Shown here piece by piece: positions 5,939 through 31,823 of a DNA stretch of 43,446 bases (the stretch's first letter is position 1; every line of letters starts with the position of its first letter). The notes beneath the pieces are model-generated. The model did no database searches. It was not told the DNA's origin and was given only the letters and a program-made list of their open reading frames with translations. The position numbers and the translations under genes are program-made. The DNA comes from Deltaproteobacteria bacterium (GTDB lineage Bacteria; Desulfobacterota; Desulfobacteria; Desulfobacterales; Desulfosalsimonadaceae): contig JAADHK010000101.1 of NCBI GenBank assembly GCA_013151835.1, forward strand, positions 1 to 43,446, in the 5' to 3' direction.

Positions 5939-6011
5939 CGTTGTAACCATGACGTCTGCAGTCACGACGTCACACATGGCAAAAAAAGCCATGCCATCGT
6001 ATAAACTCGAC

Positions 6012-6040
6012 TCTATAGCCCCATGGGTTATGCTTGTCAA
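6012..6040 (-). promoter_or_regulatory. Sigma70-type promoter of tRNA-Lys
   Basis: On the minus strand, TTGACA (6035-6040) is followed by a 17-bp spacer and TATAGA (6012-6017). It abuts the 3' end of the KptA-like gene. The predicted leader of about 65 nt contains two inverted repeats: CATGGC/GCCATG at 5975-5993, and TGACGTC/GACGTCA at 5950-5972. Confidence 0.75.
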
Positions 6041-6041
6041 T

Positions 6042-6785
6042 TTATTTTTTATGCCTTCCTGACTGTCTCCGCCCTTCCTTCCACGGGATTTTTTTCTTTT
6101 GTCCCTTTCCGGTTTTTTTGCCCGGGTGGCAAATGGCCATCTCAGGGGTGATGATATACGTTCCGGGATGTTCCATGCGGGCGCTTTCTTTTTTTTCTGT
6201 TTTTGCCGCTTTTTCCGGCTCAGTTTTTAATACGTTGCCAAGTGACGGTCCGGTGAAGGCCCCGGCCGGGACCATGTCGCATAGAAATATGAATTCTCCG
6301 AACCGGGAAAATTTTATTTCCCGGGCGGTTGATGAACTGGTGTGAATGGTTAAAAGAACTGGTTTTGGATCAAATCGTTCCCCCGCCTTTTTGGCGAGTT
6401 TCAGGTCGGCAAAGCAAGTTATTCTGCCGCCGGGCCCGGAAAACAGGCCCTTATCCAGCACGGCGGAATACGCCCTCCTGCGCACGCAGGTATAAAGGAG
6501 CTTGGGCACTTCAATACATGGTTTAAAAACCGGGAGCCTTCTCCTGTCTTTCGCGCGTATGCGATTTTCCGATATCTCCATACCGCAGTCGGGATAGAAG
6601 AGGAGTTCTTTGATATCATTTTTCCTGATATGCCGCCAGTCTTCGGTTTCGGCAAAGGCCTGGAGCAGCGATTTTAGGGTGATCCACCCGTTTTCGTCAG
6701 GCACCAGGCCGAATTCATCCGGCCTGCGCTCCAGTATATAGCGGAGGAATTTGTTTACATGTGTGATTTTATGCGCTCTGGACAT
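6042..6785 (-). CDS. KptA/Tpt1-like RNA 2'-phosphotransferase homologue with replaced active site
   Basis: KptA/Tpt1 enzymes transfer an internal RNA 2'-phosphate to NAD+. The fold can be followed along the first ~180 of 247 residues, starting HKITHVNKFLRYILERRP and GLVPDENGWITL. The family motifs are altered. The Arg-His of the first helix (LRH) is Glu20-Arg21. The QGH after the kept Arg-Ala (77-78) is Asp-Arg-Arg. The LYHGT motif is LYTCV (97-101), and the HLS motif is TCF (123-125). The normal reaction is therefore unlikely, and a pseudoenzyme or changed chemistry is inferred. The last ~65 residues form a basic tail. No clear ribosome-binding site precedes the ATG; an in-frame stop lies just upstream. 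Confidence 0.75.
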   Translation of the reverse strand: MSRAHKITHVNKFLRYILERRPDEFGLVPDENGWITLKSLLQAFAETEDWRHIRKNDIKELLFYPDCGMEISENRIRAKDRRRLPVFKPCIEVPKLLYTCVRRRAYSAVLDKGLFSGPGGRITCFADLKLAKKAGERFDPKPVLLTIHTSSSTAREIKFSRFGEFIFLCDMVPAGAFTGPSLGNVLKTEPEKAAKTEKKESARMEHPGTYIITPEMAICHPGKKTGKGQKKKIPWKEGRRQSGRHKK

Positions 6786-6790
6786 AGCTT

Positions 6791-6808
6791 TTTTTTACGA
6801 GTCCGTCA
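6791..6808. repeat. Dispersed ACGAGTCCGT word, copy 2
   Basis: TTTTTTACGAGTCCGTCA lies directly upstream of the KptA-like start codon, between the divergent kptA-like and hemL genes. It matches the word at 3155-3172 and the right end of the element at 18885-19026. Confidence 0.5.
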
Positions 6809-6918
6809 TTCTTGACACCCCGCAAGGCCTTCTGGTAGGTTACTATCCCTATTGCCGGTTTTTTTGTCAAATGCTTTGTCTTTGGCTTTTTAAATATTCA
6901 CGATTACGGGGAAGAAAA

Positions 6919-8205
6919 ATGCGTAAAAAAGAGAAATCAAATGAATTGTTTACCCGGGCCTGCGCCCTGATCCCGGGCGGTGTAAACAGCCCGGTCAGGG
7001 CGTGTGGTTCGGTAGGGGGAGAGCCCCTCTTTATTTCACGGGCCGACGGGTGCTTAATTTATGATGTGGATGACAATCAATACGTCGATTATATAGGATC
7101 GTGGGGCCCCATGATCCTGGGCCACAGGCATCCGGAGGTGATGGCCGCCATAACCGATGTTTTAAGCAGGGGCGCCAGTTTTGGGGCACCTGTCGATCTC
7201 GAGGTGCGCATGGCGGAGAAGATCACCGCCGCAGTCGACTCCATTGAAATGGTGCGCATGGTCAATTCCGGCACAGAGGCGACCATGAGCGCGGTAAGGC
7301 TTGCAAGGGGATATACCGGCCGCGATCTTGTCATAAAGTTTGACGGGTGTTACCACGGCCATGCCGACACCCTGCTCGTATCGGCCGGATCGGGCGTGGC
7401 GACCCTTTCTATACCCGGGAGTCCCGGCGTGCCCGCCGGCGTGGTGGAAAACACTATTTCTCTGAAATACAATGATGCGGCCGGATTCTCAGACATGATG
7501 GCAAGGCGGGGCGACCGGGTCGCCGCCGTTATCGTCGAGCCTGTGGCGGGGAACATGGGCCTGGTACCCCCTGACCCTGAATTTCTTTCAGTCTTGCGGA
7601 GCGAAACCGCAAAGTACTCAAACGTGCTCATCTTTGACGAGGTCATGTCCGGATTCAGGGTTGCATTTGGCGGAGCACAGGCATTGTATGGAATAACACC
7701 CGATCTAACATGCCTGGGAAAGATCGTGGGCGGCGGGCTTCCCGTGGGGGCATACGGCGGGAAAAGGGAGATCATGGAAAAGGTGGCGCCAGTCGGGCCC
7801 GTTTATCAGGCGGGGACCCTTTCGGGCAATCCCCTTGCCATGGCCGCCGGCATAGCAACACTTATGGCCCTTGACCGGCCCGGGGTTTATGAAAAAATAG
7901 AGCATCAATCTGCGCGCCTGGCTGACGGACTTGCATCCGCAGCTGCGAATGCCGGTGTTCCGGCCACAATAAACCGGGTGGGAAGTATGATGAGCCTGTT
8001 TTTTACCCCCGGGCCCGTCCGCGATTTTGAAGGCGCAAAGGGAGCCGATCTTGATCGATTTGCCCGGTACTACAATGGAATGCTTGAAAACGGTATTTAC
8101 CTTCCGCCTTCCCAGTTCGAGGCCATGTTTATCTCTCTTACCCATGAAGCCGGGGATATCGACCGAACCATAGCTGCTGCAACCCGGGTGTTAAAGAGCC
8201 TGTAA
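6919..8205 (+). CDS. hemL: Glutamate-1-semialdehyde 2,1-aminomutase
   Basis: HemL is the PLP enzyme that turns glutamate-1-semialdehyde into 5-aminolevulinate, the C5 route to tetrapyrroles. The start at 6919 (MRKKEKSNELF) has GGGGAAG upstream and matches the family start; further upstream reading has no family similarity. The 428-residue product has IPGGVNSPVRA, NSGTEATMSA, FDGCYHGHAD and IFDEVMSGFR. The Schiff-base lysine is K268 in LGKIVGGGLPVGA. Length is typical. It is followed 24 bp later by mpl. Deltaproteobacteria make heme, siroheme and cobalamin from this precursor. Confidence 0.96.
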   Translation: MRKKEKSNELFTRACALIPGGVNSPVRACGSVGGEPLFISRADGCLIYDVDDNQYVDYIGSWGPMILGHRHPEVMAAITDVLSRGASFGAPVDLEVRMAEKITAAVDSIEMVRMVNSGTEATMSAVRLARGYTGRDLVIKFDGCYHGHADTLLVSAGSGVATLSIPGSPGVPAGVVENTISLKYNDAAGFSDMMARRGDRVAAVIVEPVAGNMGLVPPDPEFLSVLRSETAKYSNVLIFDEVMSGFRVAFGGAQALYGITPDLTCLGKIVGGGLPVGAYGGKREIMEKVAPVGPVYQAGTLSGNPLAMAAGIATLMALDRPGVYEKIEHQSARLADGLASAAANAGVPATINRVGSMMSLFFTPGPVRDFEGAKGADLDRFARYYNGMLENGIYLPPSQFEAMFISLTHEAGDIDRTIAAATRVLKSL

Positions 8206-8229
8206 TATATTAAACGGTATGAGGAATAG

Positions 8230-9651
8230 ATGCAAAACGGCCTGAATAGAATTCCGGAAACCGTAAAATCGGTGCATTTTATCGCAATTTGCGGTACCGC
8301 CATGGCGGCCCTTGCCGCAGCCTTAAAAGACATGGGCATAAATGTCACGGGTTCGGATGAAAACGTCTATCCGCCCATGAGCACTTTTCTTGAAAAAAGA
8401 AAAATTCCTGTGGGCACGGGCTTTGATCCCGCAAACCTGGACTGCCGGCCGGATCTCGTGGTCGTGGGAAATGCCGTTAGAAGGGAAAATCCGGAGGCAG
8501 TGAGGGTTTGTAAAGACGGGCTTTGTTATTGCTCCATGCCTCAGGCCGTAAACCATTTTCTCGTTTCCGGCAAAAAGGCCGTGGTTGTGGCCGGAACCCA
8601 TGGAAAGACCACCACCTCGTCTATTATAGCATGGCTGCTTTACAGCGCGGGATATGATCCGACATTTATGATAGGGGGTATCGTGAAAAATTTCGATGCC
8701 AATTATCGCGTGGGCAAAGGGGAATATGTCGTGCTGGAAGGCGATGAATATGACACGGCTTTTTTCGACAAGGGGGCGAAATTTTTTCATTATCCCCCGG
8801 AGATAGCGGTCCTGACCGGAGTGGAATTCGATCACGCGGATATTTTTAAAGACCTCGATCATGTAATGGATACGTTTAACAGGTTTGTTACCGGAATCGG
8901 AAAGGAAAAACACCTGATCGCATGGGATGGGGACGAAAATGTCGTCAGATTGGCGGCCGGTGTGAGTTGCATAGTGGAACGCTACGGCGCCGGCGCCGGT
9001 TCGTGCTGGAAAATGGAAAATACGTACGTGAATCCGCCGTGGAACGGGTTTGATGTCTTTTGTGGCAACAGGTTTTTTGGTAATTTTAAAACTCGGCTTG
9101 TGGGAGGCCATAACCGGATGAACACACTTGCGGCAATCGCGGTTTGCGCGCATGCCGGGCTCTCCAGCGACCAGATAGGAACAGGGCTTGAGAGTTTTTC
9201 CGGTGTGCGGCGACGTCAGGAGATACGGGAGACAAAAAAAGGGGTGGTTGTCATGGACGATTTCGCCCATCATCCCACGGCGGTCAGGGAAACCGTGGCT
9301 GCGGTAAAGGATTTTTATCCCGACGGCCGGCTTATCGCGGTTTTCGAGCCCAGAACCAATACAAGCATGCGCTCGGTCTTCCAGGAAGTCTACCCGAAAT
9401 CGTTTGACTGCGCAGACATAATCTGTATCAGGAAGCCGCCGCTATTAAAAAAAGTCCCGGAAAACGAGCGGTTTTCATCTCAAAAGCTGGTATGCGATCT
9501 CAACTCACGGAAAAAAGAGGCCCATTTTTTTCCGGACACGGACGGGATAATCTCATTTGTGGCGGGCATTGCAAGGCCCGGGGACGTGGTTTTGATTATG
9601 TCAAACGGCGGGTTTGACAATATTCACGAAAGGCTACTTACTGCCCTTTGA
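8230..9651 (+). CDS. mpl: UDP-N-acetylmuramate:L-Ala-gamma-D-Glu-meso-DAP ligase
   Basis: Mpl reattaches the recycled murein tripeptide to UDP-MurNAc in the cytoplasm. The 473-residue product is a Mur ligase. The N-terminal Rossmann part has HFIAICGTAMAALA, the ATP loop is GTHGKTTTSS (122-131), and the central domain has LEGDEYDTAFFDKG. The C-terminal domain contains FAHHPTA and EPRTNTSMR. The ICGTAM start and the EGDEYDTA motif favour Mpl over MurC. It follows hemL closely. Its 3' end overlaps the convergent cyclic-nucleotide-binding gene by 14 bp. Confidence 0.93.
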   Translation: MQNGLNRIPETVKSVHFIAICGTAMAALAAALKDMGINVTGSDENVYPPMSTFLEKRKIPVGTGFDPANLDCRPDLVVVGNAVRRENPEAVRVCKDGLCYCSMPQAVNHFLVSGKKAVVVAGTHGKTTTSSIIAWLLYSAGYDPTFMIGGIVKNFDANYRVGKGEYVVLEGDEYDTAFFDKGAKFFHYPPEIAVLTGVEFDHADIFKDLDHVMDTFNRFVTGIGKEKHLIAWDGDENVVRLAAGVSCIVERYGAGAGSCWKMENTYVNPPWNGFDVFCGNRFFGNFKTRLVGGHNRMNTLAAIAVCAHAGLSSDQIGTGLESFSGVRRRQEIRETKKGVVVMDDFAHHPTAVRETVAAVKDFYPDGRLIAVFEPRTNTSMRSVFQEVYPKSFDCADIICIRKPPLLKKVPENERFSSQKLVCDLNSRKKEAHFFPDTDGIISFVAGIARPGDVVLIMSNGGFDNIHERLLTAL

Positions 9652-24341: not shown

Positions 24342-25334
24342 ATGTTGCTTCAAGTTATTCTACTGATTGTCGGCTTTGCCCTGCTTTATTGCGGGGCGGA
24401 ATGGCTGGTAAAAGGGTCGGCCAATCTGGCGAAAAGCCTCGGCGTTTCCAGCGTTGTCATCGGTTTGACGGTTGTGGCGTTCGGTACGTCCGCTCCCGAA
24501 CTGGTTGTGAGCGTAGTTGCCTCAATCCAGAATAAAAGCATGATTGCGGTGGGAAACGTGGTGGGGAGCAATATCTGTAACATCGCGCTTATTCTCGGTA
24601 TCGCCTCGTTTCTCATACCCATAACCGCGAACCGGTCCGTGGTTCGGCGGGATATTCCGTTGATGCTGGCCATATCGGCCCTTCTTTTTATCCTTTCTCT
24701 TGATTCATACATATCCAGGACCGAGGGTGTGGAATTGTTTACCGGCGTTATCCTGTATACGGCGTACAACTATTATTTATCGGCAAGGGATAAAAGAACG
24801 GCCGTACGGCGGGGAGCAACGCAAACCGCTGGCCCACTTGACACCGAACTTTCGGAAATCGGATACATTGAATCGCGTTTTATGCAGATCTTTTTGATTC
24901 TTTTGGGAATTGCGGGGGTGGTCATCGGCGCCAGGGTTATGATCTATGCCGCAGTCGTTTTGATGAGAAACCTTGGTGTCAGTGAAAAGTTTGTCGGGCT
25001 TACCATTGTCGCTTTCGGTACCTCGCTTCCGGAGCTTGCGACATCCGTGGTGGCCGCATTAAAAAAACAGATGGACATCAGTATCGGAAACCTGGTGGGG
25101 AGCAATGTGTTCAATATCCTGAGCGTTATCGGGATGGCCGCCATTATAAGGCCTGTTTCCATCCCCGGAGGATTTATCAAAAGCGGGCTGGTTGTGGACT
25201 ATGTTGTCATGATACTCGTCAGTTTTCTCCCGCTGGTGATGATGTGGAAGGATAATACGGTTAAACGGAGAGATGGTTTTATTCTTTTATGTTGTTATTT
25301 CGGGTATCTGTCGTACCTGATTCATAGGGGGTAA
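24342..25334 (+). CDS. Calcium/sodium antiporter (CaCA family, YrbG-like)
   Basis: The 330-residue inner-membrane protein has about ten transmembrane segments and two inverted alpha-repeats. The first is GTSAPELVVSVVAS with GNVVGSNICNIALILG; the second is GTSLPELATSVVAA with GNLVGSNVFNILSVIG. The GTSxPE and GSNxxN residues form the ion site, and both repeats are intact. The likely role is Na+- or H+-coupled Ca2+ export. The ribosome-binding site is a weak GGTGG. It has no obvious operon partner. Confidence 0.94.
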   Translation: MLLQVILLIVGFALLYCGAEWLVKGSANLAKSLGVSSVVIGLTVVAFGTSAPELVVSVVASIQNKSMIAVGNVVGSNICNIALILGIASFLIPITANRSVVRRDIPLMLAISALLFILSLDSYISRTEGVELFTGVILYTAYNYYLSARDKRTAVRRGATQTAGPLDTELSEIGYIESRFMQIFLILLGIAGVVIGARVMIYAAVVLMRNLGVSEKFVGLTIVAFGTSLPELATSVVAALKKQMDISIGNLVGSNVFNILSVIGMAAIIRPVSIPGGFIKSGLVVDYVVMILVSFLPLVMMWKDNTVKRRDGFILLCCYFGYLSYLIHRG

Positions 25335-27086: not shown

Positions 27087-27515
27087 TTAGGAAGCTGTCG
27101 GCCGTTTTCCACCAGACCAGTCCCCGCTGAGGGAAGCGGTTTTAATATCCGAGGGAAAGGCGCGGCATTTTTTACAGATTTCAATTTTTTCGGCCCAGTT
27201 TTTATGCGGCACGCCGTTGCAGATGTTACCGTTTATAAACCAGCAGAGAAGACCGGCCTTAAATTCCCACGCCGGGCACTTTAACCTGAACTCCGGCGGG
27301 CAGGACAATATCTCCCAGCATGGCTTTAATTTTTCCGCCAGGCCTTCTTTTTGATAAAAGAGAAAGAATGACTGCCGTTCCACGTGAGCCGGGACGTTCC
27401 GCCATCCCTGCTCGTAGCTGCACACGGCCTTTATGGAAACGCCGAGCAGCTCCGCCATCTCTTTTTGGGTCTTGCCCATCCGTTTTCTGAAACTGACGAA
27501 TTCTTCGGCCTTCAA
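27087..27515 (-). CDS. XRE-type HTH regulator with Cys-rich C-terminal domain
   Basis: An N-terminal helix-turn-helix (FRKRMGKTQKEMAELLGVS, then VCSYEQGWRNVP) is joined to a domain with seven Cys: C66, C72, C80, C91, C99, C114 and C117. The CWEILSC, CPAWE and LLCWF segments resemble the two-CW type domain of anaerobe regulators, suggesting metal or Fe-S sensing. The start used is TTG at 27515, four bases after AAGGAGG; the ATG at 27530 would contain that ribosome-binding site. It heads an operon with MOSC and methyltransferase genes and has a long structured leader. A molybdenum- or tungsten-related role is inference from context. Confidence 0.8.
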   Translation of the reverse strand: MKAEEFVSFRKRMGKTQKEMAELLGVSIKAVCSYEQGWRNVPAHVERQSFFLFYQKEGLAEKLKPCWEILSCPPEFRLKCPAWEFKAGLLCWFINGNICNGVPHKNWAEKIEICKKCRAFPSDIKTASLSGDWSGGKRPTAS

Positions 27516-27709
27516 GGGACCTCCTTGCATGTTTTTTTATCTGTTCACATCCTGCAGTTATGTCCTGAAAAGCAGAACCGGCAGGCGAAAGCACTCTGCC
27601 GTTGGCCGGGAGTGAAATTATCCAATTGTCCAGGGAAACATGCTGTAAATACCCGGTTATATACAGGGTATCCGACTCCGGCAGGGACTTGTGGAAAAGA
27701 TATTCTTTG
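27516..27709 (-). ncRNA. Structured 5' leader, possible Moco/Tuco-type riboswitch
   Basis: About 195 nt separate the predicted transcription start from the HTH start codon. On the minus strand an 8-bp stem, GCATGTTT (27636-27643) with AAACATGC (27527-27534), ends next to the AAGGAGG. Inside it, TTCACTCC (27609-27616) pairs with GGATGTGAA (27544-27552). This second stem encloses two adjacent hairpins: CGGCAG/CTGCCG (27596-27601, 27579-27584) and GTTCTG/CAGGAC (27573-27578, 27562-27567). The CTTTCGCCTGCCGG segment recalls the molybdenum-cofactor RNA motif as I remember it. The MOSC gene downstream fits such a ligand. The identity is not proved. Confidence 0.4.
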
Positions 27710-27748: not shown

Positions 27749-27776
27749 AAAAATGACGGACCCGTAAAAGTCCGTC
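27749..27776 (-). terminator. Terminator of the beta-propeller lipoprotein gene
   Basis: On the minus strand GACGGAC (27776-27770) pairs with GTCCGTC (27761-27755), followed by ATTTTT. The stem also carries the GACGGAC-CGTAAAA theme of the ACGAGTCCGT repeat family, so it may derive from such a repeat. Confidence 0.7.
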
Positions 27777-27808
27777 AACCGGCCGGGCGCGGCAGCGCTG
27801 GCCGGGCT

Positions 27809-29758
27809 TTACGGTATCTCCTCCACGGGCGCGCTTTTGACCTCGTCGGGATCAACGGCAAAAACCGTGTCGCCGATAAAGATTCCACGGGACCAGTACG
27901 GCCATTGCGCCTGGGTCAGGGCGAGGCGTCCCTTGAAGGTAAAGCCGTTATCGCCGGAAGCCGAGTATACATAGAGACCGTCAAAGGTATGGGTTCCCCA
28001 TTCCCAGGGTTGATCCGGCAGGGTCAGATGCTCGTAGAGATTGACGGGGATGGCAAGAAGGCCTTTTTCAGAAAACCAGGTAAAGGCCTTGTGGTCGTAA
28101 AGTGCCTCGGAACCGGTTCCCCGGGCCCCGATGTGCTCGGAAAAAAGGAGTTCGGGCGCCGAGAAATCCGAGATATCGAAGATCGAGAGTTGCAGACCCT
28201 GATACCAGGTAATGCCATCCTCGACCCGGGCGTCCTTGCCCATGGCCAGAAGCAGGTCGTCGCTCATGGGGTGGAGATAGGTGGAATATCCGGGAACGGT
28301 AAGTTCTCCGGCCACCTTCGGGTTTTTGGGGTCGGACAGGTCGAGGGTAAAGAGCGGGTCGACCTTGACAAAGGTTACCAGAAAGCCCCGGGTTCCCATG
28401 AACCGGGCCGCGTACAGGTCTTCGCCGGGTGCGATCCCGTCGAGACGGCCGATGACCGCAAGTTTTGTCCCGTCCGGCTTTAGGCAGAATACGTGATTTT
28501 CCTTGTCCGTATTCCAGTTTGTGCCTGTGGATGTGGCCACCCTGAGCACCCCCTGGTATTCCCCCAGGGAGAACTGGTTGATCACCTCGCCCGGTACCGT
28601 GCCTGAAGCAACCAGCCTGGCCTTTTCTCCGGTCAGGTCGATCATGTGAATATGGGTGACGAAATCCGCTGTGCCGCTTGTGTCGAGCCAGTCGATTGTC
28701 CATGGATAATCGGTGTCCACGAGATAGAGGGACCGGGTGGACGCGTATACCGTGCCGACATCCGCGATAAAACCGATACTTGAAAAATCGGATGACGGAT
28801 CATCCAGGTCCTGGGTTAGAACAGTGACGATCCCCCCGCCGCTGGCGGGGTCCGGCCGGAGGAAATCGGGCGTGGGGACCAGGCGGCCGCTCTTAAGAAC
28901 CGCGTCGGCCGCGCCCGTAACCGTTACCTTCGGCAAAAAGGCGTCAACCGGCATGTCGGCAAGTAACAGCCGGTTTTCGCTGATCACGTTTTCGCGGTTT
29001 TTTTCTGTGCCGTCGTACCAGATGTGGATGGGTGGGAGGACCGGTAAGTATTGCAGAATCACATGAAGCCTTCCTTCGATCCTGCGGGAGCCGGAAAGGC
29101 GCCCGTCGGCCGTGATTTTCTTGATTGTTTCCGGGGCATCCGGATTTGACACATCCACAAAGAGTATGCCGACACGTGCGTTTACCGGTATCCAGTAGGG
29201 GATGCCCACAAAGTCGGCCTTAACACTCGGATCCACCGAATCAGCACCGTTCCAGGGGGTTCCCGCGTTGTTTTCAGGTGTATAGATGATAACCAGAAGG
29301 TGTCCGTAGAGGTAAAGCTCGTCAATATCGCCGTCCACGCTGATCTGCCTGGAGCCGGCCGCATCGTTTGCGTTTGTTTCGATGCCTGGACGGGCAGCCA
29401 CGATTTTCACGTGATTCTTCGATGCGATGTATAAGAAGTCGCCGTCGGTTTTTACCACGTCCCCTTCGTCAACCCCGGCCTCCTGGATGTTTGTAGTTGA
29501 AAAACTCCCCTTTTCCGGCTGGTCGGCGCCGTCGGTGCCGACCCCGTCTTCCGCGCTCGCGTACAGTATATTCGAAGAAGAGGATACGCCCGATGCATAC
29601 TGCTCGACGAAATAGTCGTGAAGCTCGGCATCACTGGTGAAATCCATGCCAACGCTCGGATTGCCGACCTCGGTTCCCCCGGAACAACCTGAAAGCAGGA
29701 ACATGGCGCAGATGAACAGGCCCATGACCGTCTGAAAGCAAAATCTCTTGGAAGTCAT
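27809..29758 (-). CDS. Secreted beta-propeller lipoprotein
   Basis: The 649-residue product has a lipoprotein signal ending LSGC (C25). TEVGNP at 29-34 follows directly, a short motif I associate with a class of surface lipoproteins in this phylum. The rest matches the C-terminal beta-propeller family (PF09826-like): EAGVDEGDVVKTDGDFLYIA near the start of the propeller, then repeated blade strands such as IHMIDLTGEKARLVASG and LRVATSTGTNW. No catalytic motif is visible, so it is probably a surface binding or sensing protein. It starts 2 bp after the TIGR02147-type regulator gene, whose end contains its AAGGAG ribosome-binding site. Confidence 0.88.
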   Translation of the reverse strand: MTSKRFCFQTVMGLFICAMFLLSGCSGGTEVGNPSVGMDFTSDAELHDYFVEQYASGVSSSSNILYASAEDGVGTDGADQPEKGSFSTTNIQEAGVDEGDVVKTDGDFLYIASKNHVKIVAARPGIETNANDAAGSRQISVDGDIDELYLYGHLLVIIYTPENNAGTPWNGADSVDPSVKADFVGIPYWIPVNARVGILFVDVSNPDAPETIKKITADGRLSGSRRIEGRLHVILQYLPVLPPIHIWYDGTEKNRENVISENRLLLADMPVDAFLPKVTVTGAADAVLKSGRLVPTPDFLRPDPASGGGIVTVLTQDLDDPSSDFSSIGFIADVGTVYASTRSLYLVDTDYPWTIDWLDTSGTADFVTHIHMIDLTGEKARLVASGTVPGEVINQFSLGEYQGVLRVATSTGTNWNTDKENHVFCLKPDGTKLAVIGRLDGIAPGEDLYAARFMGTRGFLVTFVKVDPLFTLDLSDPKNPKVAGELTVPGYSTYLHPMSDDLLLAMGKDARVEDGITWYQGLQLSIFDISDFSAPELLFSEHIGARGTGSEALYDHKAFTWFSEKGLLAIPVNLYEHLTLPDQPWEWGTHTFDGLYVYSASGDNGFTFKGRLALTQAQWPYWSRGIFIGDTVFAVDPDEVKSAPVEEIP

Positions 29759-29760
29759 GA

Positions 29761-30603
29761 TTATTCTCCTTTATCGACGCGTGATCTTGTGAGCGGAAAC
29801 ATCTGGACATTTATCTGAACGACCGAATTGCCCGCAGGATCGGATGCGAATTCGGTCAGCAGTTCCTTTCTGAATAGGGCGATCCTGTCTTTTAATTCAA
29901 GAATTCGTCCCTGTGGAATCGACAGGGTAAGACCGCTGATATCTCGGTCGGCGGCTGCAAACCGGTCGATGGATTCCGCCGCAAGAGCCATCATTTTCTT
30001 GTGGAAATTGGCAACAAGGACCGATTCCACCTCCGGGCCGGTTGAAACGATTGTATCGGCCTGTTTCCATGAGCCGGTTCCGTCCTTATTGAGCAGGCCA
30101 AGTTCGGACAGGTCGGACAGGGCTTTTTCAACCTTTGCAACCGGTACGGCCGGGTTGAGCAGGCGGGCGATTTTTTTTGCCGAAACCGGAGAGGAAAGGA
30201 TACTCACGAGTTCCCGGATGGCCGGATAGTACCATTGGGAAAAATAATTGTATGCTGTTTTCGCAAGCTTTTTTATGCTGCCGTTTGTCCCGGTAAGGAG
30301 TAGCTTTTTATAATAATAATCCTTAAGCTCGTGTTCGGATGCCTGATTCATGAAGACAAGATTTTCAAAATAGATACGCTCCGGCTTTTTTAATGAAAAG
30401 CCGCGTGCTACCTTTGCGATGCTCTCGCAGGTCAGGTTGCGTTTCTTTTCGATGACCAGTTTCAAAAAATTGGGTGAGGCAAACCCGGCCCTGGCCGAAA
30501 ACACGCGATAGGAATATCCCTGCTTTGTCGTCTTCCTGTAGTGGAACATGTCATTTAAATACCGGCGGAAATCTAGGTAGTCGAACACCGATGGTCGTTT
30601 CAT
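29761..30603 (-). CDS. TIGR02147 family (DUF4423-type) predicted regulator
   Basis: The 280-residue protein begins MKRPSVFDYLDFRRYL, then YSYRVFSARAGFASPNFLKLV, an HTH-like segment typical of TIGR02147 proteins. A C-terminal region follows (LAAESIDRF, ISGLTLSIPQGRILELKDRI, VVQINVQMFPLTR), corresponding to DUF4423. The family is known as a large paralogue set in Fibrobacter and occurs in Bdellovibrio-like bacteria; its function is not established. The start at 30603 has AAGGGGAAAG upstream; the upstream in-frame ATG at 30687 lacks one. It is coupled to the lipoprotein gene and preceded by clustered palindromes, so an autoregulatory DNA-binding role is inferred. Confidence 0.82.
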   Translation of the reverse strand: MKRPSVFDYLDFRRYLNDMFHYRKTTKQGYSYRVFSARAGFASPNFLKLVIEKKRNLTCESIAKVARGFSLKKPERIYFENLVFMNQASEHELKDYYYKKLLLTGTNGSIKKLAKTAYNYFSQWYYPAIRELVSILSSPVSAKKIARLLNPAVPVAKVEKALSDLSELGLLNKDGTGSWKQADTIVSTGPEVESVLVANFHKKMMALAAESIDRFAAADRDISGLTLSIPQGRILELKDRIALFRKELLTEFASDPAGNSVVQINVQMFPLTRSRVDKGE

Positions 30604-30715
30604 GGCCTTTCCCCTTCCGGTGACAAAAGAGTGAGGAATTGTATTGAACCTGTTTTTATCAATACCGCCTGCCGGGCACACCGGCAAGTGAAAAGGGGAT
30701 TTTTTCGATAAAAAT

Positions 30716-30806
30716 GTATTCTTTTGAATACAAAAAATTTAAAATTATCTTATTATTAAAGCATATTGATAAATATTCAATATATATTTTATTGATATAT
30801 TGAATA
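30716..30806. promoter_or_regulatory. Cluster of palindromes upstream of the TIGR02147 gene
   Basis: GTATTC-TTTT-GAATAC (30716-30731) is a perfect palindrome. TATTCAATATAT (30774-30785) is repeated exactly in inverted orientation at 30795-30806 with a 9-bp spacer. ATATTGA/TCAATAT (30763-30783) overlaps it. All share a GAATA or TTGAATA half-site. The region is very AT-rich, so some symmetry is expected by chance, but a perfect 12-bp repeat is not. It is 110-200 bp upstream of the TIGR02147 start and may be its operator. Confidence 0.55.
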
Positions 30807-30869
30807 CGGTATCGCCGCGTATTTTCCATGCTGACTGCCTCGCGGCCGACATATGGGCCTGCACCGTCC

Positions 30870-30898
30870 TTGTCATACAAAAAAAACTTTGATATTAC
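30870..30898 (+). promoter_or_regulatory. Possible promoter of nifU
   Basis: TTGTCA (30870-30875), 17-bp spacer, TATTAC (30893-30898), about 100 bp before the nifU start. A GC-rich CCCGGA/TCCGGG hairpin lies at 30951-30965 in the predicted leader. No clear IscR box is seen. Confidence 0.45.
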
Positions 30899-30995
30899 GA
30901 CTCGGGTGGTTATTATTAGTTAACCTTTCTTTAACAGCAAAAAGACGGCCCGGATCGTCCGGGAGGTCTCCCTGCAATATAGTCAAGGAGGAACC

Positions 30996-31823
30996 ATGTG
31001 GGAATACACGGACAAGGTAAAAGAACATTTCATTAATCCGAAAAACGTCGGAGAATTACCGGATGCAAACGGCATCGGGGAGGTCGGTTCAATGGCCTGC
31101 GGCGATGCGCTGAAACTCTATATCAAGGTGGATGAAAACGATCGAATCGTTGACGTCAAGTTCCAGACCTTCGGGTGTGCAAGCGCCATCGCGTCTTCCT
31201 CGGCCCTGACGGAGATGATCATGGGAAAGCCGCTTGTTGAGGCTGAAAAAATAACCAACGACGATATCGCGGACTATCTCGGGGGCCTGCCCAAGGAGAA
31301 GATGCACTGCTCGGTTCTCGGCAAGGATGCGCTTAAAAAGGCCATTGAGGATTACAGGGGAGTCGCTGCGGCCGGGCCCGAAGGGGAGATCGTGTGTGAG
31401 TGTTTCGGGGTGACGGACAAACAGATTGAAGAAGCCGTGAGCGAGAACCATTTAAAGACGATTGAGGATGTCACCAATTATATCAAGGCAGGCGGCGGTT
31501 GCGGCAATTGCCATGAAAAAATCCAGGAGATCATCGATACCTTTTACAAAAAACCCGGAGTAATTGTCCCCAAGCCCAGGAAACTTACGAATATCGCAAA
31601 GATAAAGCTCATAGAAGATACTCTTGATCGCGAAATCAAGCCTGCGTTGATGCAGGACGGCGGCAATATAGAGCTGGTCGATATAGACGGCGATGTTGTG
31701 TTTGTAAAGCTTAAAGGGACCTGCGCCACCTGCTCGGCATCCCAGCTTACACTGAAAAATTACGTGGAAATAAAGCTGAGAGAACTGGTTGCACCGGGGC
31801 TCGTGGTCGAGGAGGTGAAATAA
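30996..31823 (+). CDS. nifU: Fe-S cluster assembly scaffold NifU, three-domain form
   Basis: NifU assembles Fe-S clusters from sulfur supplied by NifS. The 275-residue product is complete. The IscU-like domain has C35 (ACGDALKL), C61 (FGCASA) and C105 (HCSVLG). The central ferredoxin-like [2Fe-2S] site has C134, C136, C169 and C172 (CECFG and GGCGNCHE). The C-terminal Nfu domain has CATC at 243-246. No nitrogenase genes are nearby; in many anaerobes this NIF-type pair is the general assembly system. The ribosome-binding site is AAGGAGG. Its stop codon overlaps the nifS start by one base (TAATG). Confidence 0.96.
   Translation: MWEYTDKVKEHFINPKNVGELPDANGIGEVGSMACGDALKLYIKVDENDRIVDVKFQTFGCASAIASSSALTEMIMGKPLVEAEKITNDDIADYLGGLPKEKMHCSVLGKDALKKAIEDYRGVAAAGPEGEIVCECFGVTDKQIEEAVSENHLKTIEDVTNYIKAGGGCGNCHEKIQEIIDTFYKKPGVIVPKPRKLTNIAKIKLIEDTLDREIKPALMQDGGNIELVDIDGDVVFVKLKGTCATCSASQLTLKNYVEIKLRELVAPGLVVEEVK

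Follow-up and report, generated by a model that had tools for sequence, protein, structure and literature searches.

In this study, we examined a window of 43,446 nucleotides (the whole stretch of DNA that was analysed) in which a gene for a TIGR02147/DUF4423 regulator directly precedes one for a beta-propeller lipoprotein, and we relate this pair to similar loci in other genomes. The lipoprotein carries, just behind its lipid-anchored Cys, a short conserved peptide that we call the tag. The features at the locus are the following.

30603 to 29761, minus strand: TIGR02147/DUF4423 regulator gene, 280 aa, with its ATG at 30603 and its stop ending at 29761
29758 to 27809, minus strand: PF09826 beta-propeller lipoprotein gene, 649 aa, with lipobox LSGC and then SGGTEVGNP
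29658 to 29677, minus strand: codons of the tag, G-T-E-V-G-N-P, the last base of the Pro codon excluded; the sole match to the pattern in the window's genome
30716 to 30731: palindrome GTATTC-TTTT-GAATAC (GTATTC-N4-GAATAC), a candidate operator conserved upstream of relatives
30774 to 30806: perfect 12-bp inverted repeat, arms 30774-30785 and 30795-30806, 9-nt loop
30802 to 30807, minus strand: distal GTATTC half-site, 76 bp upstream of the palindrome
27754 to 27777, minus strand: terminator-like hairpin and T run, directly 3′ of the lipoprotein gene

An earlier note on this DNA had read the regulator gene as ending 2 bp before the 649-residue propeller lipoprotein, with the ribosome-binding site of the latter in the end of the regulator gene, and had described GTATTC-TTTT-GAATAC and the perfect 12-bp inverted repeat in the noncoding gap, all of which we confirm. 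The two intervening bases are 29759-29760, and the ribosome-binding site, of AAAGGAG type, lies inside the regulator's final codons. By our own pattern and by eye, the N-terminus of the lipoprotein, MTSKRFCFQTVMGLFICAMFLLSGC, consists of a signal peptide and a lipobox ending in Cys, followed by SGGTEVGNPSVG, while its body belongs to PF09826 Beta_propel (434.1 bits; gathering cut-off 22.4). The region holds eight terminator-like hairpins against 4.3 expected in shuffles, so the hairpin behind the lipoprotein gene is weak on its own. Upstream, the regulator shares its gap with a divergent NifU-type gene (30996-31823), whose promoter the palindromes in this gap could also touch. Beyond the lipoprotein, positions 27087-27530 encode a protein that has two CW domains and weakly matches an HTH. 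Rfam at its gathering thresholds gave no match between 27500 and 31100. Nothing pointed to a phage origin: none of the 126 pattern-matching stretches in a scan of viral_contigs encodes a relative.

The regulator is a clear member of its family, scoring 254.7 bits against TIGR02147 (NCBIfam; model positions 2-271 of 272, curated cut-off 50) and, over residues 109-271, 115.8 bits against DUF4423 (Pfam PF14394; gathering cut-off 30). The library entries describe a paralogous family (TIGR02147, Fsuc_second) and a domain of unknown function (DUF4423); neither a partner tag nor an operator forms part of the family description. A possible second copy in the window's genome (G000:C118) was discarded at 20.9 bits, under the cut-off, in a frame that looks GntR-type. 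AlphaFold modelled the regulator with a pLDDT of 89.6 and a pTM of 0.76. Using VIA-align, residues ~106-190 were placed on ArsR/SmtB (CzrA-like) winged helices (2oqg: Z 9.7, 72 residues, 2.4 Å; 1r1v: Z 9.9, 89 residues, 4.0 Å) and residues ~8-93 on HigA (6chv: Z 8.1, 77 residues, 3.0 Å), scores that are modest given mostly helical domains. Foldseek of the model against the PDB returned nothing at E ≤ 0.001 (best E 0.19), and a PDB sequence search with a 105-row profile gave weak matches only (best E 0.049). Fourteen positions are invariant or near-invariant in an alignment of 105 sequences, six of which (R220, Q263, N265, Q267, F269 and P270) are C-terminal and outside both HTH units. Peptide-sensing regulators of the RRNPP type are built from an XRE HTH followed by a TPR domain; in our regulator the N-terminus is HTH-like, and Pfam at E ≤ 0.001 gave DUF4423 only.

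Within the window's phylum the family is rare, with TIGR02147 over the cut-off in 6 of 394 Desulfobacterota genomes. Two of these six copies run off the contig (L006) or are a fragment (L007), and all four remaining ones are followed by a tag lipoprotein, with SGGTEVGNP, GGTETGNP, AGATETGNP and AGGSDVGNP behind the Cys. Elsewhere, among 24 genomes chosen because they hold TIGR02147, the number of matches ranged from one to at least 67, three copy-rich genomes having 54, 63 and at least 67. An alignment of four sequences, scanned against a species-genome collection, found 54 loci, whose record titles name Desulfobacterales, Desulfuromonas, Fibrobacteria, Chitinivibrionales, Bdellovibrionales, Oligoflexia and Myxococcota, the others being titled only Deltaproteobacteria, Proteobacteria or bacterium. 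These scan loci were reached via similarity to four Desulfobacterota regulators and via two peptide patterns, and so do not sample the family at random; a further 100 loci were taken by place from 14 of the genomes, low-scoring copies included.

As the strict tag we took [GAS][TSV]xxGN close to the beginning of an open frame of exported type, and we removed 10 duplicates and 6 regulators running off their contigs. Among 109 TIGR02147 loci (scan set, Fibrobacterota and copies scoring 150 bits or more), 61 had it in the next gene, compared with 5 of 409 controls, which were other genes of the same loci; the corresponding Fisher P of 6e-43 is descriptive only, the loci being related by descent. 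Comparison across loci thus bears out the pairing in an operon, and the enrichment of tagged lipoprotein neighbours that the earlier note had set as a check is indeed found. The tag was most frequent in the scan set with the window and L004 added (40/50), followed by Bdellovibrionota/Myxococcota copies of at least 150 bits (14/22) and Fibrobacterota (7/37), and was seen in none of the 31 lower-scoring copies (0/12 at 120-150 bits and 0/19 below 120 bits). When a wide pattern was used that allows drifted forms such as GSETTN and GTETTN, 20 of the 37 Fibrobacterota loci were positive, against 14 of 409 control genes. An earlier, stricter-lipobox count, now superseded, had assigned the 156 rows (duplicates included) to 53 with tag, 28 with a lipobox and no tag, 69 with neither and 6 running off.

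Individual cases show how these counts are to be read. L035 (CTGTEVGNP) and L048 (CGTEIGN) carry the tag and yet were scored negative in this count. Of the five positive controls, L019 is the second gene of a tag operon, L185 has a DUF4423-type match (92.6 bits) in front of it, L189 is several genes downstream of a regulator, and L026 and L029 look like chance. At L041, L045 and L054 the regulator is followed by a propeller without the tag and then, as third gene, by a small lipoprotein with TDVGNP. The L018 locus (5989-8344) has regulator and palindrome and no lipoprotein behind them; its next gene, ~540 bp on, resembles by eye the Na/Ca exchanger at 24342-25334 of the window. For copies below 156 bits, an SPase I-type secreted partner in which GNGG or VGNG follows the signal peptide was found in 7 of 33 against 7 of 409 controls, a count in which L207 is doubtful, the start of L198 is uncertain, and at least five of the seven control positives again lie in regulator operons. 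This motif, which stands just after the signal peptide in partners of the lower-scoring Bdellovibrionota DUF4423 copies L184, L188, L193, L196 and L201, is perhaps a sister form of the tag.

Apart from the tag, the partner proteins have little in common. Alignment of 86 of the 96 listed partners (the omitted ones mostly duplicates; one duplicate pair, L023 and L120, kept) gave a mean column identity of 7% and the consensus C-xxx-GTExGNP, which is partly due to selection, scan-set partners without the strict tag being absent from the list. The bodies matched, at E ≤ 0.001, CarboxypepD_reg (26), Laminin_G_3 (16), DUF2341 (13), Beta_propel (6), DUF4382 (4) and LRR (3), and further Kelch, META and NosD.

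The link was also examined from the side of the tag. When 18 TIGR02147-bearing genomes were searched at the DNA level for G[TS][ED]xGNP, there were 48 matches, against 11 for the reversed pattern. Twenty-three of the 48, distributed over 19 genes, follow a same-strand TIGR02147 match by no more than 600 bp, and one regulator operon (G396:C93, L247) contributes two more, in its third and fourth genes. Among the other 23, one has a lipoprotein-type N-terminus (G401:C249, with a D/P-rich run) and the rest mostly lack, by script, a signal peptide with Cys. Tag lipoprotein genes of these 18 genomes are accordingly found in TIGR02147 operons in 21 of 22 cases, or 21 of 24 if one includes two script-flagged matches set aside by eye, G403:C51:6443 (tag deep inside a secreted protein) and G406:C131 (GCDDGN); G408:C116 was counted as a lipoprotein on its lipobox pattern, though unflagged in the script for signal and Cys. 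At L247 a single regulator is followed by three tandem lipoproteins (656, 1755 and 868 aa), all with GTELGNP.

Throughout the phylum, GT[ED][VIM]GNP had 14 matches in 394 genomes (reversed pattern, 8), of which only two stand at the start of a lipoprotein: that of the window and that of G393 (L275/L303), beside a decayed TIGR02147 fragment. The match in G010 (L311) lies ~40 residues past the Cys, inside an apparent alpha/beta hydrolase (RGTDVGNPVLLFIHGGPG), that in G199 (L304) has a hydrophobic stretch before it and no Cys, and the remaining ten are in interior, short or signal-less frames. Lipoproteins starting with the tag are thus confined, in these 394 genomes, to TIGR02147 operons or a remnant of one. 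The propeller family provides a useful comparison: PF09826 is present in 19 of the 394 genomes, at 20 places (one per gene from 25 matches, with four second segments and one match under the cut-off left out), of which two are tagged and adjoin TIGR02147, 17 have no tag and no adjacent regulator that we could find, and one, L275, is tagged. The tag was checked by script where a lipobox was found (11/20) and otherwise by eye, the N-terminus being unclear in L287, L289 and L291. L275 (G393:C63) encodes a GTEVGNP propeller lipoprotein in a genome without a TIGR02147 match and is the sole regulator-less tagged propeller seen. Directly upstream of it, at ~1000-1150 in minus orientation, two frames, VRSLVVANFHREMLKLSAESIERHAK and NPDQVIQINVQAFPLT, correspond to a decayed TIGR02147 C-terminus, and we read this exception as a probable recent loss of the regulator.

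Turning to the upstream region, GTATTC-N4-GAATAC did not occur in 2000 dinucleotide shuffles of the gap at 30607-30995 (389 bp), and inverted repeats with arms of 12 or longer never arose when the same gap was shuffled 200 times, and arose seven times when its AT-rich core was shuffled 500 times; GTATTC-TTTT-GAATAC is solid and the 12-bp repeat only modestly surprising. As a shared element the latter did not hold up, being absent from the 11 other upstream regions inspected, and one of its arms overlaps the GTATTC half-site (30807-30802). For a shared GAATA-type palindrome, which the earlier note had proposed to look for, the outcome is in favour of the note's reading. GTATTC-N4..7-GAATAC is overrepresented ahead of TIGR02147 genes in several phyla, with 26 sites in 46,406 upstream bases against 7 in 1,033,506 others after removal of duplicates, a density ~80 times higher; spacers were N4 in 12, N5 in 11, N6 in two and N7 in one, and never N0-3 or N8-12. 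Nine of 12 Desulfobacterota-type loci have an N4 palindrome within 260 bp upstream, with nine different spacers, whereas in L015 it lies 567 bp upstream, L004 has half-sites only and L040 has GTATACAAATTGTATAC. The enrichment is limited to part of the family: the palindrome is found in 19 of 49 loci of the scan set, 1 of 37 in Fibrobacterota, 4 of 22 Bdellovibrionota/Myxococcota copies of at least 150 bits, and upstream of none of the copies at 120-150 bits (0/12) or below 120 bits (0/19). On the sequences compared, it marks one large branch of the family, not all copies. In L015, at ~200-650, a long CCCGTG-type repeat stands between palindrome and regulator gene.

In 15 of 27 rows (13 of 25 once L157 and L159, duplicates of L047 and L035, are left out), the 120 bp upstream of the palindrome contain a further GTATTC or GAATAC, against 1.27 expected, and this distal half-site therefore suggests two-site binding or looping. 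More generally, inverted repeats with arms of at least 8 were found in 39 of 155 upstream regions, a figure that includes GTATTC-type palindromes and some duplicates, against a mean of 8.9 and a maximum of 17 in 20 shuffles; other TIGR02147 branches may have operators of their own. A Fibrobacter copy, L121, has an upstream palindrome with 16-bp arms, TAAAAACTGTATCCTGTCAGGATACAGTTTTTA. Distances from the palindrome to the best sigma-70-like promoter, whose scores were weak, are scattered, several being near 17-19 and 28-29 bp. In L041, L045 and L054 a sigma-28-like element, CAACTTT-N12-GACGAAAA/GACGATAA, lies ~60 bp before the regulator match and downstream of the palindrome; by pattern it is found at five or six of 156 loci, the five-locus pattern having 8 matches in 2.26 Mb on both strands.

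From these findings, and in support of the interpretation in the earlier note, we consider it probable that TIGR02147 proteins are operator-binding autoregulators of envelope-protein operons, with the tag coupled to the regulator, the latter since the tag is hardly found without it. For binding to DNA, the support comes from the predicted folds and from the palindrome enrichment. Such a two-gene operon would encode first a cytoplasmic protein with HTH and winged-helix units, which in the window's branch most likely binds GTATTC-N4/5-GAATAC, often with participation of a distal GTATTC half-site ~57-106 bp further upstream. Once bound, it would control the operon that encodes it and, in certain genomes, a small number of other envelope-protein genes in trans. 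The second gene provides an exported, usually lipid-anchored and presumably surface-exposed protein whose body may be almost anything (propeller, lectin-like, LRR, Kelch or a short protein), and whose mature N-terminus retains G-[TS]-[ED]-x-G-N-P or a variant of it. The tag is likely to matter for the circuit of the regulator or for placement of the protein. We lean towards its being read, directly or via a third party, in a feedback loop between lipoprotein export and the regulator, because a general sorting tag would be expected without the regulator too, and yet none was found in the 394 genomes of the phylum. A more specific version, in which TIGR02147 recognises GTExGNP on the unexported precursor through its C-terminal part (R220 and Q-N-Q-F-P), is speculative and in our view rather unlikely. 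If it were true, each of up to dozens of pairs per genome would sense the export of its own envelope protein, giving a modular export-feedback system with a body free to change and a fixed tag. In an AlphaFold prediction of the natural in-frame read-through at L016 (TAA read as Q), the tag had a pLDDT of ~28-35 and docking was not predicted, an outcome that speaks neither for nor against binding. A natural regulator-lipoprotein fusion in L155 was dismissed, its long frame being a run of N in the assembly.

The same tag could instead be purely a localisation signal, for outer-membrane retention or surface export, with the regulator only timing synthesis and the cassette copied as a unit. Lipoprotein sorting and export signals act shortly after the lipid-anchored Cys, and the tag stands mostly 1-15 residues past it; some lower-scoring partners, of SPase I type, have their GN motif right behind the likely cleavage site, and the partner bodies are extracellular-type domains. 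An N-terminal lipoprotein export signal is, moreover, described for Bacteroidetes (PMC5080379). This explanation is a real possibility, although a doubtful one, as it sits poorly with lipoprotein starts in GT[ED][VIM]GNP that occur, in the 394 genomes of the phylum, only beside TIGR02147 or its remnant, and with the near-complete residence of tag lipoprotein genes in TIGR02147 operons of regulator-bearing genomes. That the tag is instead the by-product of a DNA or RNA element within the coding sequence, such as an operator or a translational coupling device, might be suspected from its location early in the second gene, not far from the stop codon of the regulator. Across 66 tag instances, however, all synonymous codons are used (four for Gly, four for Thr, two for Glu, two for Asn and four for Pro), and therefore selection acts on the protein and not on the DNA; this notion is largely refuted and hardly tenable any longer.

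With regard to the palindrome, GTATTC-N-GAATAC might be the site of another regulator of envelope genes and not of TIGR02147. Many TIGR02147 copies lack it, and it is also found before genes without an adjacent regulator, namely PF09826 propellers in L271, L022 and L034 and a subtilase in L268. The seven non-upstream sites comprise that of L015, those of the L022 and L034 propellers, three that stand before exported-type proteins of other kinds (vWA/YfbK in L037, CarboxypepD_reg in L024, VIT in L063) and a seventh with no clear target. In 15 Desulfobacterota-type genomes, the N4 form has 15 sites, two of which precede an untagged propeller lipoprotein without adjacent regulator (L271) and a subtilase (L268); three others lie inside coding genes, and those at G000:C93 (L270), G118:C57 (L261) and G395:C77 (L267), inside unrelated coding genes, were judged to be chance. 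Against such a second regulator stand the remaining 10 sites, all before TIGR02147, the much higher density upstream of TIGR02147 than in the remainder of those loci, and four of these genomes without TIGR02147 (G118, G033, G093 and G141), three with no site and one with an intragenic site only. We regard it as improbable. Finally, the neighbourhood could be chance, inherited in one lineage without functional link, since the nearest relatives of the window belong to a single group whose propellers are homologous, and the loci surveyed are related to one another. Such an origin is very unlikely, to the point of being negligible, given that the pairing recurs in records titled as Desulfobacterales, Fibrobacteria/Chitinivibrionales, Bdellovibrionales/Oligoflexia or Myxococcota, and that the second genes encode many kinds of domain that are unrelated to each other.

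To put the proposed operator-binding, tag-coupled regulator into the context of known systems, the Bacteroidetes lipoprotein export signal (LES) is the nearest known idea. According to PMC5080379, it consists of K-(D/E)2 or Q-A-(D/E)2 at the N-terminus and, like the tag, is a short set of conserved residues in otherwise different lipoproteins. The tag differs from it in its sequence (G-T-E-x-G-N-P), in occurring in other phyla and in being tied to one regulator family, and the window's residues after the Cys, SGGTEVGNPSVG, do not fit the LES consensus. Autoregulated HTH operons of the HigA-like and ArsR/SmtB-like kinds are similar in their regulator-first order, upstream palindrome and HTH or winged-helix folds; the likeness is one of fold and layout only, as the second gene here is exported, with a variable body and a fixed N-terminal tag. 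In the literature searched, which was limited to open-licence papers, we came across neither the pairing nor the tag nor the operator, and DUF4423 is named in PMC12546842. The family and the domains were already known, and the pairing, tag and operator appear to be new within that literature.

The pairing suggests an overlooked control system for cell-envelope proteins in several phyla, and provides a candidate operator, a partner and a peptide tag for a regulator family that is listed without function and reaches tens of copies in some genomes. In Fibrobacterota, Bdellovibrionota, Myxococcota and Desulfobacterota, which include cellulose degraders and predators with poorly understood envelope proteins, the N-terminal tag offers a sequence handle by which to find such exported proteins. 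The tag can also be repeated in tandem, with three repeats in L025 and four in L251 (G401:C149), ~35-40 residues behind the lipid-anchored Cys.
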